Source: Candidatus Coatesbacteria bacterium
Lineage (GTDB): Bacteria > RBG-13-66-14
Length of the DNA: 50,114 bases
Assembly: GCA_014728225.1 (NCBI GenBank)
Contig: WJLX01000101.1
Coordinates: forward strand, 1 to 50,114
Direction of reading: 5' to 3'
This document shows, piece after piece, positions 2,685 to 50,114 of the stretch. Within the stretch, counting starts at the first letter, position 1; the number at the start of each line of letters is the position of its first letter. The notes beneath the pieces are model-generated. The model saw nothing but the letters and a program-made list of their open reading frames with translations. It ran no database searches and was not told where the DNA came from. The translations under genes were made by a program, and so were the position numbers.

Positions 2685-3455
2685 ATGGCCCGATACAACA
2701 GCGCAATGCGCCGGGTGGTCCGCCGCCGCCTGTGGAGTGACGAGAAGAAGAAAAAACGCCGCACCGCCGTCTTCAGCGGACTGATGATCGTCTGGATGGG
2801 CGGCTACATGTCCTTCATCTTCCTGGAGACACTCTGGATCGCCATCGGACTGGCGTCCGCCTGGATCGTCATCTTCCTCGTCGTCGTATTGGGCGACTAC
2901 GCCGACCGCCTCTTCGTCATCCGCGCCCTGTTCGAGGAGGCCGGGGAACGCTGGGAGAAGTTCTGCGAGGAGGTCGGGGATCCGCCGATCAAGGCCCGGG
3001 TGGGCGAAGCCTTCCCCCTGGTCATCGAGCACTACGCCACCATCCGCCAAAGGCTGGGTGAGATCGACGATCTGCCCGCCGACCTCGACGACGTCGTCGA
3101 CGAGGTCGAGGCCGACGCCCTGGCGCTGGCCCGGGAATGGTTGCGGATGGACAAGGTCTTTCTCCTCTACCAACGCGGCAAGGACATCAACTCCGAACCA
3201 CTGCAGGGCAAGGCCCGGCAGTTGATGGCCCTGCTGGGCAAGCGGACCGTCGAGTTTACCGTCCTGCTCGAACGCCTCGTCGAGGCCCTCAACCGCCTCG
3301 AAGCCTTCGAGCTCGACAGCGAGGTGGCCGTCGAGTTCGGCACCGCGACGGGCCGTTCCGACTTCGGCTTCGTCGAGCACTTCGTCAGCGAGCTGCGCGA
3401 TTGGAGCGCCTGCCTGACCCGGGCCCAGGAGGAGCTGACCCGGGAGAAGTTCTAG
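2685..3455 (+). CDS. hypothetical two-TM membrane protein with long helical tail
   Basis: No family recognised. The 256-residue protein has a basic N-terminus (RRVVRRRLWSDEKKKKRR), two adjacent hydrophobic helices (about residues 28-48 and 50-70), and a cytoplasmic, mostly helical acidic region of about 185 residues rich in Leu, Glu and Arg that may form coiled coils. GC-rich codon use matches the neighbours. It starts 36 bp after fhs on the same strand and could be co-transcribed. The last base of its TAG stop is the first base of a large inverted-repeat element (3455-3649), so its mRNA would end in that structure. Confidence 0.8.
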   Translation: MARYNSAMRRVVRRRLWSDEKKKKRRTAVFSGLMIVWMGGYMSFIFLETLWIAIGLASAWIVIFLVVVLGDYADRLFVIRALFEEAGERWEKFCEEVGDPPIKARVGEAFPLVIEHYATIRQRLGEIDDLPADLDDVVDEVEADALALAREWLRMDKVFLLYQRGKDINSEPLQGKARQLMALLGKRTVEFTVLLERLVEALNRLEAFELDSEVAVEFGTATGRSDFGFVEHFVSELRDWSACLTRAQEELTREKF

Positions 3456-3649
3456 CGCGGGAGACCGTTGAAAACCCAACCCCGCCGAATCTCCCGAACC
3501 CGACGCCCGGAACCGGCACGGTTTTTGCAGCCCCGGAACCGCCGGGACGGGTTACGGGTTGCGACCCCGCAAAAACCGTGCCGGTTCCGGGCGTCCAGCG
3601 GATCCCGCTCCGTGGAGCCGCTCGTCGGGTTTTCAACGGTCTCCCGCGC
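3455..3649. repeat. nested inverted-repeat element, copy A
   Basis: The outer arms 3455-3477 and 3627-3649 are a perfect 23-bp inverted repeat (core GAGACCGTTGAAAACCC). The inner arms 3502-3528 and 3569-3595 are a perfect 27-bp inverted repeat (core GGCACGGTTTTTGC). The 40-bp centre contains a further imperfect stem (CCGGAACC / GGTTACGG). Total 195 bp, starting on the stop codon of the upstream gene and ending 83 bp before the next start. Same design as copies B, C and D. Confidence 0.93.
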
Positions 3650-8944: not shown

Positions 8945-9014
8945 CAATCTTACTCGAAGTCGATCTTGTTGCTCGTCAGCCCCGTGATCATCTTGGGGCG
9001 GCGGTGCCGCGGCC
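8945..9014 (-). pseudogene. detached 3' tail of a DUF1015 gene (copy 1)
   Basis: Minus-strand reading gives PKMITGLTSNKIDFE followed by TAA, matching the C-terminus PKMITGLTINRFDHA of the intact DUF1015 gene 0.5 kb upstream. The sequence before it (CGGCCGCGGCACCGCCGCCC) is repeat DNA, not gene body. Only the tail is present, so this is a remnant. Confidence 0.7.
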
Positions 9015-9085
9015 GGGGCCGTCACGGTTCTTGCGACGCTGGACCACACCGGGTCCAGCGTCGCAAGAACTCGCGCCGGCCCCTG
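9011..9085. repeat. degenerate relative of the nested inverted-repeat family (G)
   Basis: A perfect 18-bp inverted repeat 9027-9044 / 9053-9070 with an 8-nt loop. The arm contains CACGGTTCTTGC, one change from the CACGGTTTTTGC core of the main family. The flanks GGCCGGGGCCG and CGCGCCGGCCCC extend the pairing imperfectly. Confidence 0.6.
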
Positions 9086-9289
9086 CGTTGTCTCACCAAC
9101 GTAACGATCAGGTCCGCGTCGCTGCAGGGGCGGGGCTTTCGACCCCCCGCGGCGGCCATTGCATCAGCCATACCCCTCAACCCGATCATTACCCCAGCGG
9201 GGAGGGGGAACCGTCTTACGCCGACAGACCAAGGGGCGGACCGGTCGGTTCGCCCCTGCAGACACCATCCACCATCGACGCAGCAGCCA

Positions 9290-11359: not shown

Positions 11360-11436
11360 TGGTGGGCGATACTGGACTCGAACCAGTGGCTTCCGCTCTG
11401 TGAAAGCGGCGCTCTAACCAACTGAGCTAATCGCCC
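11360..11436 (-). tRNA. tRNA-Val (anticodon CAC)
   Basis: All four stems fold: acceptor GGGCGAT/ATCGCCC, D-arm GCTC-AGTTGGTTA-GAGC, anticodon stem CCGCT/AGCGG with loop TTCACAG (anticodon CAC), and T-arm ACTGG-TTCGAGT-CCAGT. Discriminator A and an encoded CCA follow. It reads GUG. Its first 10 nt are also the end of the coding region upstream (11427-11909), whose TAG stop is tRNA bases 8-10. Confidence 0.96.
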
Positions 11437-11909: not shown

Positions 11910-12048
11910 TGCTGCGTCCCTGTGCTTTGTTTATCCCGTGGCGACCGGCTTCACCCGGGTCCGTCGGGGTCTGCCGGCGGTGCAGGCACCGGAGCGGCTT
12001 GCAGCCCGGCCCTCGTCGCAGAAGCGGCGCCTGGGCGGACACGGCCCG

Positions 12049-12303
12049 CCAATCCAGCTCCCGTCTTGCGGTCGCTTTCGACGTCGGGCGGGCCGTCACG
12101 CTATCCAGCCCCCCAATCCAGCCCCCGTCTTGGGTCGCTTTCGACGTCGGGCGGGCCGTCACGCTATCCAGCCCGCCAATCCAGCTCCCGTCTTGGGGTC
12201 GCTTTCGACGTCGGGCGGGCCGTCATGATATCCAGCCCCCCAATCCAGCCCCCGTCTTGCGGTCGCTTTCGACGTCGGGCGGGCCGTCATGATATCCAGC
12301 CCC
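12049..12303. repeat. tandem repeat, 4 units of about 64 bp
   Basis: Units begin with CCAATCCAGC at 12049, 12113, 12176 and 12240 (periods 64, 63, 64). Each contains CGCTTTCGACGTCGGGCGGG and ends with TATCCAGCCCC. Units differ at only a few positions. The array stops 4 bp before the encoded CCA end of the next tRNA and thus replaces the normal terminator region of that tRNA. It has no coding potential consistent with the neighbours. Confidence 0.92.
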
Positions 12304-12307
12304 CGTT

Positions 12308-12384
12308 TGGTGGGCCCACCAGGACTCGAACCTGGGACTAACCGGTTATGAGCCGGTGGCTCTAACCAACTGAGCTATGGGCCC
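12308..12384 (-). tRNA. tRNA with CAT anticodon, probably tRNA-Ile2 (lysidine type)
   Basis: Acceptor GGGCCCA/TGGGCCC, D-arm GCTC...GAGC, anticodon stem ACCGG/CCGGT with loop CTCATAA (CAT), T-arm CCAGG-TTCGAGT-CCTGG, discriminator A and encoded CCA. It is not an initiator, because the first acceptor pair is matched. The acceptor G-C pairs and the CCGGCTCATAACCGG arm resemble tRNA-Ile2 more than elongator Met, but sequence alone leaves that open; TilS recognition would decide. Confidence 0.9.
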
Positions 12385-13890: not shown

Positions 13891-14076
13891 CCGGAAACCT
13901 TTGAAAACCGCTCGCCAGACCCCGGGGCCGGGTCGCCGGTCGCGCCGGAACTGGCACGGTTTTTGCAGTTGCCGTACCGCTGAGACGTTTCACAGTCTTC
14001 GACGCCGCAAAAACCGTGCCAGTTCCGGCGGCGAAGTCGCTGATCGTCGCCGGTCGTGCTTTTCAAAGGTCTCCGG
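13891..14076. repeat. nested inverted-repeat element, copy B
   Basis: The outer arms 13891-13907 and 14060-14076 match at 16 of 17 (core ACCTTTGAAAA). The inner arms 13944-13966 and 14007-14029 are a perfect 23-bp inverted repeat with core GGAACTGGCACGGTTTTTGC. Compared with copies A and C, the left arm has CT for CC and the right arm has the matching AG for GG. The centre is 40 bp. It lies between pth and hppA, both on the plus strand. Confidence 0.92.
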
Positions 14077-18930: not shown

Positions 18931-18935
18931 ACGAG

Positions 18936-19003
18936 GCCCGGCGCGGTTCTTGCCGCGCCGGACGCCGGCGTCCGGCGCGAATGCAAGAAGCGTGACGGGC
19001 CGG
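18936..19003. repeat. degenerate relative of the nested inverted-repeat family (H)
   Basis: A perfect 24-bp palindrome without loop at 18955-18978 (GCGCCGGACGCC and its complement), flanked by GCGGTTCTTGC on one side and GCAAGAAGCGTGACGGGCC on the other. The flanks match the GGCCGTCACGGTTCTTGC arm of relative G. It lies 14 bp past the rhomboid stop codon. Confidence 0.6.
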
Positions 19004-19016
19004 GGGCGGGGAAGGG

Positions 19017-22740: not shown

Positions 22741-22935
22741 CGGCGAGACCTTTGAAAAACGTTTACGGCGCTTTCGCGGCCCTGCATGGCCGGAACCGGC
22801 ACGGTTTTTGCGGAGTTTGGCGCCTGCGGCCGTCCGGAGCGCGGCGGGGCTGCAAAAACCGTGCCGGTTCCGGCGTTGGGGTTCGCGTGGCGGCGGGGCG
22901 GTCTTCCCGGCGGTCGTTTTTCAAAGGTCTCGCCG
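22741..22935. repeat. nested inverted-repeat element, copy C (between cheA and cheB)
   Basis: The outer arms 22741-22761 and 22915-22935 are a perfect 21-bp inverted repeat (core GAGACCTTTGAAAAACG). The inner arms 22789-22811 and 22852-22874 are a perfect 23-bp inverted repeat with core GGAACCGGCACGGTTTTTGC. The centre is 40 bp and the total 195 bp, as in copy A. In the operon mRNA it lies 21 nt after the cheA stop and 2 nt before the cheB start. Confidence 0.94.
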
Positions 22936-41707: not shown

Positions 41708-41785
41708 CGGCCCCCGCCGGGCGGCCAGCGGGGGGTAAGCTTGCCGACCATCGGACACCTCGCCCGCCCAGCAGCGCCCGCGCCA

Positions 41786-41980
41786 GGCCCTGGAAAAGCG
41801 GCCGCGGGTCAACCGCAACCCCCCAGGAACACCGCGCCGCCGGAACTGGCACGGTTTTTGCAACTCGGCGACCGTTGGAGCGTTCCTCAACGGTTCGCCT
41901 CAGCAAAAACCGTGCCAGTTCCGGCGGCGGAGGTTTGTCGGTAGTCGTGCCGCTGTTCCGATACCCGCTTTTCCAGGGCC
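41786..41980. repeat. nested inverted-repeat element, copy D
   Basis: The outer arms 41786-41801 and 41965-41980 are a 16-bp inverted repeat (GGCCCTGGAAAAGCGG), diverged from the other copies but keeping GAAAA. The inner arms 41836-41861 and 41903-41928 are a perfect 26-bp inverted repeat with core GGAACTGGCACGGTTTTTGC. The 41-bp centre folds again (GCGACCGTTG with CAACGGTTCGC). Total 195 bp. It lies 69 bp past the tandem-Nudix stop and upstream of fba. Confidence 0.92.
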
Positions 41981-42049
41981 GGGCACGTGGGGGTGGGGGT
42001 GGTGATCAGCGCAGCGCAGAGCGGGCATCGCTTTGTCGGAGTAAGGTAG

Positions 42050-48637: not shown

Positions 48638-48764
48638 GCCGGGGTACGGAGCCCCCGGCCTATCGGTCACTCGGCAATGACACGGACAAACGAACTACTG
48701 GTAGTTCGGTAGCATTTGTTCGTCCCGGCTCCGGCGCGCCCGCCGTCGACGAGCCCGGGAGCGG

Positions 48765-48825
48765 TGCGCGTTTTTGCGAGGACGGAGCCGCCCGGCTCCG
48801 TCCTCGTTGCAAAAACCGTACCGGC
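48765..48825. repeat. divergent member of the nested inverted-repeat family (E)
   Basis: A perfect 14-bp stem CGAGGACGGAGCCG (48777-48790) and its complement (48793-48806), directly flanked by GCGTTTTTGC on the left and TTGCAAAAACCGTACCGG on the right, the family arm with changes. It lies between the convergent Nudix and PyrD-like genes. Confidence 0.7.
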
Positions 48826-48860
48826 CCGCCCCTCCCCGCGGACATGAGGGTGTACTCGAG

Positions 48861-49936: not shown

Positions 49937-50042
49937 CGGCAACTCCCGCCGACAACGGGAGAATAAGCCGCTGCCGTCGCTCTCAACACGGCGCCGCCGG
50001 CGGAGAGCTTCAACAATCGCTGGGTCTACAAACTCCCGGCCC

Positions 50043-50114
50043 GCCGGAACCGGCACGGTTTTTGCATCTCGGCGACCGTTACAAACGATGATAACGGTCG
50101 GCCTCCGCAAAAAC
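50043..50114. repeat. nested inverted-repeat element, copy F (cut by window end)
   Basis: The inner left arm 50043-50065 is identical to copies A and C (core GGAACCGGCACGGTTTTTGC). The 41-bp centre folds (CGACCGTTA / TAACGGTCG), and the right arm begins at 50107 with GCAAAAAC before the window stops. It lies upstream of the PyrD-like promoter. Confidence 0.88.

Follow-up and report, generated by a model that had tools for sequence, protein, structure and literature searches.

An abundant intergenic palindrome of one Coatesbacteria family with two facing sigma-54-type sites

The genome of a Candidatus Coatesbacteria bacterium harbors about 250 copies of a nested intergenic palindrome of roughly 195 bp, which we named element A. 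Element A is real, abundant and lineage-restricted, it is mobile in origin and apparently maintained in place, it is not a terminator, and it matches no known RNA. Our best explanation, which we consider about equally likely to be right or wrong, is that element A is an old non-coding MITE- or REPIN-like intergenic element that was kept as a paired RpoN site and whose arms are homogenized at the DNA level.

Copies of element A in the window and in the genome

The DNA that we analyzed (the window) is contig C101, with a length of 50,114 nt, of a genome of 2.96 Mb in 181 contigs with 96.8% completeness. An earlier note on this DNA had described four full copies of a palindromic element and a fifth one cut by the contig end, and all five were found at the same places; no strand is assigned to any of them. 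Copy 1 (195 bp, 3455-3649) has outer arms at 3455-3480 and 3624-3649 and inner arms at 3507-3528 and 3569-3590, with a 40-bp center. Its predicted fold was far more stable than those of shuffled sequences, with z values of -11.6 as RNA and -12.2 as DNA. Copy 2 (186 bp, 13891-14076) has inner arms at 13945-13966 and 14007-14028 and the outer arms CCGGAAACCTTTGAAAA and TTTTCAAAGGTCTCCGG, and copy 3 (195 bp, 22741-22935) has inner arms at 22790-22811 and 22852-22873 and the outer arms CGGCGAGACCTTTGAAAAACG. The inner arms of copy 4 lie at 41840-41861 and 41903-41924. The boundaries first given for copies 1-3 were correct, and only the outer arms of copy 4 (GCCAGGCCCTGGAAAAGCGG, one mismatch) were slightly wider, about 41782-41984 instead of 41786-41980. 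In copy 5 (50042-50114) the contig end cuts the second inner arm.

The core sequence GGCACGGTTTTTGC, with up to two mismatches, had 12 matches in the window versus 0.27 expected. Genome-wide, the core 14-mer gave 265/260 matches, and the reversed control gave none. The whole genome contains 234 exact full inverted pairs and 247 copies of the relaxed pattern GGCACNNTTNTTGC-N34..48-GCAANAANNGTGCC. While these counts are for the whole genome, copy-level statistics are from 35% of it (1.04 Mb, comprising the window and about 1 Mb fetched in addition), with 98 full copies, and gene context is based on gene calls by a codon-usage model. Most of the roughly 98 copies have the exact 14-mer in both arms, and only few are decayed. 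In many cases contig ends fall inside copies of element A, as is expected for palindromic repeats in a short-read assembly. The copies are about 12 kb apart and lie outside of cassette arrays (compare integron attC sites). Among named records, the exact core pair was present only in Candidatus Coatesbacteria WJMB01000088.1. Carriage of element A by viruses was rejected, since the exact core pattern had no match in IMG/VR.

The window also harbors a tandem array at 12044-12323 with about four copies of a 63-64-bp unit. It is located between the tRNA genes at 11363-11436 and 12311-12384, and its last unit abuts the tRNA.

Architecture and covariation of the arms

The outer arms of element A have a length of about 17-24 bp and the loose consensus GGCGAGACCTTTGAAAAACAGCC. 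The motif GACC-TTGAAAA, which had been proposed for them from the window copies, is no more than such a loose consensus. Spacers of 26-47 nt follow, the left one C-rich and the right one its G-rich mirror image, and they are unalignable between copies. The inner arms (CCGGAACYGGCACGGTTTTTGC) are almost invariant and form a perfect pair over 22-27 bp. They enclose a center of 40-41 bp, usually ATCTCGGC-GACCGTT-n-AACGGTC-CGCCTCC, in which a third stem is possible. Both the perfect inner pair and the center of 40-41 bp were present in each copy of the window, as described before. Outer arms were detected in 84 of the 91 flank-complete copies in the 1.04 Mb, by a criterion under which 7% of arms paired across different copies score equally well. 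The median span was 194 bp (5-95% range 179-203). A constant total span achieved by compensating spacers was rejected, since the lengths of left and right spacers were essentially uncorrelated.

The arms covary within copies. In the core columns of the outer arms, 93% of the positions were complementary within a copy versus 66% between copies, and 151 changes were two-sided versus eight that were one-sided. In the inner core model 92.4% of the positions were paired, versus 86.2% after shuffling and at most 47% in slid controls. It showed two-sided changes in 22 pairs, more than all 500 shuffles and every slid control. When the outer and inner arms of element A and the stems of the related family B (see below) were taken together, G-T combinations (20) were no more frequent than A-C combinations (33), while the acceptor and T stems of the tRNAs from the same genome had 10 versus 1 (P=0.002). 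The lack of a preference for G-T over A-C argues against selection on one fixed RNA strand. With this result, selection for DNA pairing and correction by template switching cannot be told apart. The argument for the DNA level is less clear for the central stem of element A, since G-U types are present there.

Selection for the DNA hairpin or cruciform itself, for example as a site for chromosome organization, replication or recombination, would also keep the arms complementary, and the sequence of the outer arms would matter little. Consistent with this, the outer arms in the related genome G013 have nearly no common sequence, but they are present in 6-7 of 11 copies, still with a span of 184-199 bp. 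Outward of GACC, complementarity declines smoothly over about 7 bp and a sharp end is absent. Copies of element A less than 2.5 kb apart are also rarer than expected at random (8 versus 15, P=0.01). Apart from this mild avoidance of close neighbors the chromosomal spacing is irregular, however, so that regular spacing was rejected, and selection for the cruciform leaves the conserved sequence of the inner arms unexplained. We regard it as an improbable sole cause.

Sigma-54-type sites in the inner arms

Each inner arm is an exact sigma-54-type -24/-12 site, GGCACG-N4-TTGC, with 10 bp between GG and GC. Every element A therefore has two facing sites. In copy 1 the site GGCACGGTTTTTGC (GG-N10-GC) of the first arm is located at 3515-3528 on the plus strand and is directed into the center, and its partner in the second arm is located at 3569-3582 on the minus strand. 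The same 14-mer was found in Escherichia coli as the motif of the sigma-54 ChIP-seq peak OS13 (AGGGCACGGTTTTTGCA; PMC4591121). One rpoN gene is present in the genome (E 1e-56), and G013 also has one.

Outside of the elements, the motif TGGCAYN5TTGC occurred eight times in the 1.04 Mb. All eight sites were located between genes, with the start of a co-directional gene 25-153 bp downstream of each, and no upstream position in the 1.04 Mb had the same motif with a spacing of minus 1 or plus 1. When the arm consensus sequences of four genera were compared, the sigma-54 columns were identical in 9/9 cases versus 4/11 for the other columns (P=0.004, from four consensus arms that are not independent). 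One arm of the g3 elements often has a spacing of 11, which would make it a poor sigma-54 site. RpoN likely binds to the arms of element A, as predicted from these sites, and such binding may be the reason why the arms are kept. Since the whole inner arm is conserved within the genome, beyond the sigma-54 positions, it could also be read by a different DNA-binding protein.

The sites do not look like ordinary promoters. The base at -26 is C, not T, in 57% of the copies of element A, and it is T in eight of nine promoter-like single sites. Together with the placement of the copies, which fall at convergent junctions in the same proportion as intergenic regions in general and do not favor gene starts, the C at -26 counts against ordinary promoters. 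Within the literature covered, nothing relevant was found on MITEs or inverted repeats with internal sigma-54 sites.

Dense arrays of exact sigma-54 sites were seen in viral contigs from IMG/VR (L211:3660-3780, L213-L234). Facing pairs of the type TTGGCACGN4TTGC-N1..12-GCAAN4CGTGCCAA were present in 23 stretches, tandem pairs in 71 and back-to-back pairs in seven, and wrong spacing did not occur. L211 has three facing pairs at distances of 43 bp, and terminase-like genes follow a few hundred bases later. The N4 stretches of viral facing arms were complementary just 23% of the time, so the viral pairs are sites and not hairpins. A special arrangement of facing pairs in phages was rejected: tandem pairs were commoner and back-to-back pairs were also present, so the phage sites form dense arrays with every orientation.

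Genomic placement and the related family B

None of the copies of element A in the 1.04 Mb was located inside a called gene, and no intergenic region had more than one copy. The copies were found at 59 co-directional, 19 divergent and 17 convergent junctions. Intergenic regions of at least 150 bp as a whole gave 224/72/61, in the same proportions (P=0.97). No orientation preference relative to the genes was found in this sample. Element A was not enriched before gene starts, in contrast to the single sigma-54 sites.

These data bear on two functions that had been suggested for the element, a 3'-end or attenuation device and a structured RNA. The distances to the preceding stop codon noted for the window copies (0, 24, 21 and 69 bp) match the gene calls, but a short distance after the stop is not a genome-wide feature. 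It is local to the window, since the junction types of element A in the 1.04 Mb have the same proportions as for all intergenic regions. On the basis of this gene context, a role as terminator or attenuator was rejected. A structured RNA on a fixed strand is weakened by the missing G-T excess in comparison to the tRNA control and by the lack of a match in Rfam: the search of the window gave tRNAs only, and the matches at copy 1 with the best E-values were far below the gathering scores.

The view that a co-transcribed long hairpin ends, stabilizes or cuts transcripts could nevertheless draw on the very stable predicted fold, on the covariation of the arms and on family B. Family B is an ~85-bp single hairpin related to element A, GTCACGSTTYTTGC...GCAAGAACCGCGCC, in which conserved mismatches break the sigma-54 consensus in both arms. 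By model R2 there are at least roughly 140 copies in the genome and many in G013. The window contains three of them, at 9013-9089 on the plus strand (an ~85-bp hairpin, GTCACGGTTCTTGC...GCAAGAACTCGCGCC), at 18932-19010 on the minus strand (at a junction that is convergent by the gene calls) and at 48755-48837 on the minus strand (also at a convergent junction). Convergent junctions have more copies of family B than expected (P about 0.002, in a count that includes some weak matches), and one copy is located at the same stop codon in our genome and in G013 (L066 and L184). Due to this enrichment and the shared position, family B behaves like a 3'-end element, unlike element A. Element A occurs between divergent genes as often as at any other place, shows no bias to gene orientation, does not prefer G-T over A-C on either strand and has no Rfam match. 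It is doubtful, in our judgment strongly so, that element A itself acts as an RNA or as a 3'-end device.

Occurrence in relatives and mobility

The earlier note had proposed a search of the genome and its relatives with a covariance model, and this search revealed many copies with a restricted distribution. The relaxed pattern gave 247 copies in the own genome (G000), 155 in G013, two in G011, one in G008 and none in the 10 remaining genomes sampled from the phylum. With the covariance model R1, 71 copies were detected in G011, and G009 and G012 had a few each. By model R1 and a generic pattern, element A is confined to one family (the own genome, G013, G011, G008, G009 and G012) and absent from seven genomes from other families of the phylum. 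Few copies, no shared spacing, or a match to an Rfam family had been named as findings that would speak against a defined family; the copies are many, their spacing is shared and there is no Rfam match. The sigma-54 sites, family B and the genus-specific arms are new with respect to the earlier note.

The sequence of the inner arms is specific for each genus: YGGCACGGTTTTTGC in g1, TTGGCACGTTTCTTGC in g4, GTGGCACAGTTTTTGC in g3 and GTGGCACGCTTCTTGC in g2. One copy in the own genome (L061:1899-1970) has inner arms of the G013 type, GGCACGTTTCTTGC, by ancestral inheritance or horizontal transfer.

Different sites are occupied in each genus. At orthologous gene junctions, G000 did not share a single element A site with G013 or g3; the mean protein identity of best matches between the genera is 61%. 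Junction gaps with the element in G000, compared to relatives without it, were 276 versus 34 bp, 376 versus 128 and 124 bp, and 234 versus 3 bp. In the reverse case, a gap of 311 bp with the element in G013 corresponded to 12 bp in G000. These near-empty orthologous junctions look like insertions after the genera had separated. Together with the avoidance of genes and the lack of orientation bias, the different and near-empty junctions indicate that the copies are not terminators. Of the three origins or functions suggested earlier, a MITE-like element is the one best supported, by the different junctions per genus and the near-empty orthologous sites.

No recent near-identical pairs were found among the sampled copies, and very recent ones could hide at contig breaks. 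Since the spacers are unalignable and no recent pair was seen, yet the arms are intact, the arms are apparently maintained in place. An exact 15-bp direct repeat at the ends (CGCCGCGCCGTCCGC) was clear only for the copy at L082:11002-11189, and no family-wide signal of target duplication was detected across 67 copies, which speaks against a plain transposon with target duplication. The copy at L082:11002-11189 lies directly downstream of the rpoN gene, and the orthologous junctions in G013 and G012 are without it. The Y1 transposase (RAYT; Y1_Tnp, PF01797) had no match in G000 and G013, the two copy-rich genomes. Genera g3, g5 and g8, where copies of element A are rare or absent, do have it. 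A RAYT-driven REPIN was rejected because the copy-rich genomes lack the transposase. No long paired-arm (autonomous) element was seen in 35% of the genome, where the frequent contig breaks in element A copies could hide one.

Element A could also be purely selfish, a MITE- or REPIN-like element whose inner arms are read as ends or hairpins by a transposase acting in trans, and its match to sigma-54 would then be coincidental or incidental. The turnover of sites between genera with empty junctions, the genus-specific arms including the one G013-type copy (L061:1899), and the copy with a 15-bp direct repeat are in line with this, as is the intergenic placement without orientation bias, which was also reported for REPINs (PMC3116915). 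Opposed to it are the absence of Y1 transposases (PF01797) from both copy-rich genomes, the lack of a general signal of target duplication, and arms that are intact although the sampled copies include no recent near-identical ones. Furthermore, the conserved columns coincide with the sigma-54 positions. We consider the purely selfish element possible but not probable.

Discussion

According to the explanation that we favor, an old element kept as a paired RpoN site, element A would have multiplied through intergenic insertion and remained in place afterwards. Its conserved working part would be the two facing sigma-54 (RpoN) -24/-12 sites across the 40-bp center. Sigma-54 RNA polymerase could bind to either site and, once activated, transcription would run outward from the element on one side or on the other. 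Such use of either site would fit the absence of an orientation preference. The arms would be held exactly complementary at the DNA level, most likely through arm-to-arm correction by template switching in replication, to which selection for a DNA hairpin or cruciform may or may not add. Perfect stems have been proposed to arise and persist through template switching (PMC8794818, PMC8604942).

More tentatively, the about 250 palindromes may constitute genome-wide paired facing RpoN sites that act as orientation-independent two-way promoters or as a sink for RpoN polymerase. They would be held by selection, presumably for some benefit to the host, would stay symmetrical through arm-to-arm DNA correction, and their sequence would be re-set in concert in each genus. 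If hundreds of facing pairs are indeed occupied by RpoN, a regulator would be wired or buffered across the chromosome in a new way.

The usual explanations for dispersed palindromes in bacteria are terminators and REPINs driven by RAYT, and neither fits element A, whose conserved part is the recognized binding site of a global sigma factor. Its outer arms record how perfect palindromes drift in concert in nature, and they are useful for tests of whether template switching or selection maintains stems. Covariation of this type could be mistaken for a structured RNA.

REPINs are doublets of REP sequences that form hairpins, with random extragenic placement and compensatory changes in the stems (PMC3116915). 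Element A resembles them as a short non-coding element with hundreds of copies and two inverted motifs, each about 14-16 bp long, whose first bases are about 70 bp apart (PMC3116915), and our data confirmed the hairpin of two inverted conserved motifs and the random extragenic placement. Unlike REPIN/RAYT systems, it has no Y1 transposase in the copy-rich genomes and has an extra pair of outer arms about 194 bp apart. Also unlike REPINs, its arms are sigma-54-type sites, are genus-specific and occur in one family only. Units of the REP superfamilies are 20-40 bp long and have at one end an unpaired tag, GTAG or CGTC (PMC3733652). Neither GTAG nor CGTC was found as an unpaired end in the consensus of element A, and family B has CGTC only within its long stem.

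MITEs such as Correia/CREE, NEMIS and ERIC-type elements are about 100-200 bp long, intergenic and non-coding, with inverted repeats and turnover of sites. Element A shares with them the terminal inverted repeats, which vary between copies, the lack of coding capacity and the insertion polymorphism. In contrast to MITEs, its ends are fuzzy and its outer arms differ between copies while being complementary within a copy. A general target duplication was not detected over the 67 copies, nor an autonomous parent in 35% of the genome, where contig breaks could conceal one.

With sigma-54 promoters, element A has in common the exact consensus GGCACG-N4-TTGC with 10 bp from GG to GC, in a genome with rpoN. 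Unlike in such promoters, its sites stand face to face in a palindrome, about 250 times in one genome and with no upstream preference. Under template-switch (quasipalindrome) correction, stems are expected to be perfect and compensatory changes to span several bases, with no G-U intermediates (PMC8794818, PMC8604942), and the covariation between copies suggests that element A is alike in this respect. Element A thus resembles a dispersed palindrome of the MITE/REPIN type yet fails the RAYT and tag tests, and its facing RpoN sites are the new, testable part.
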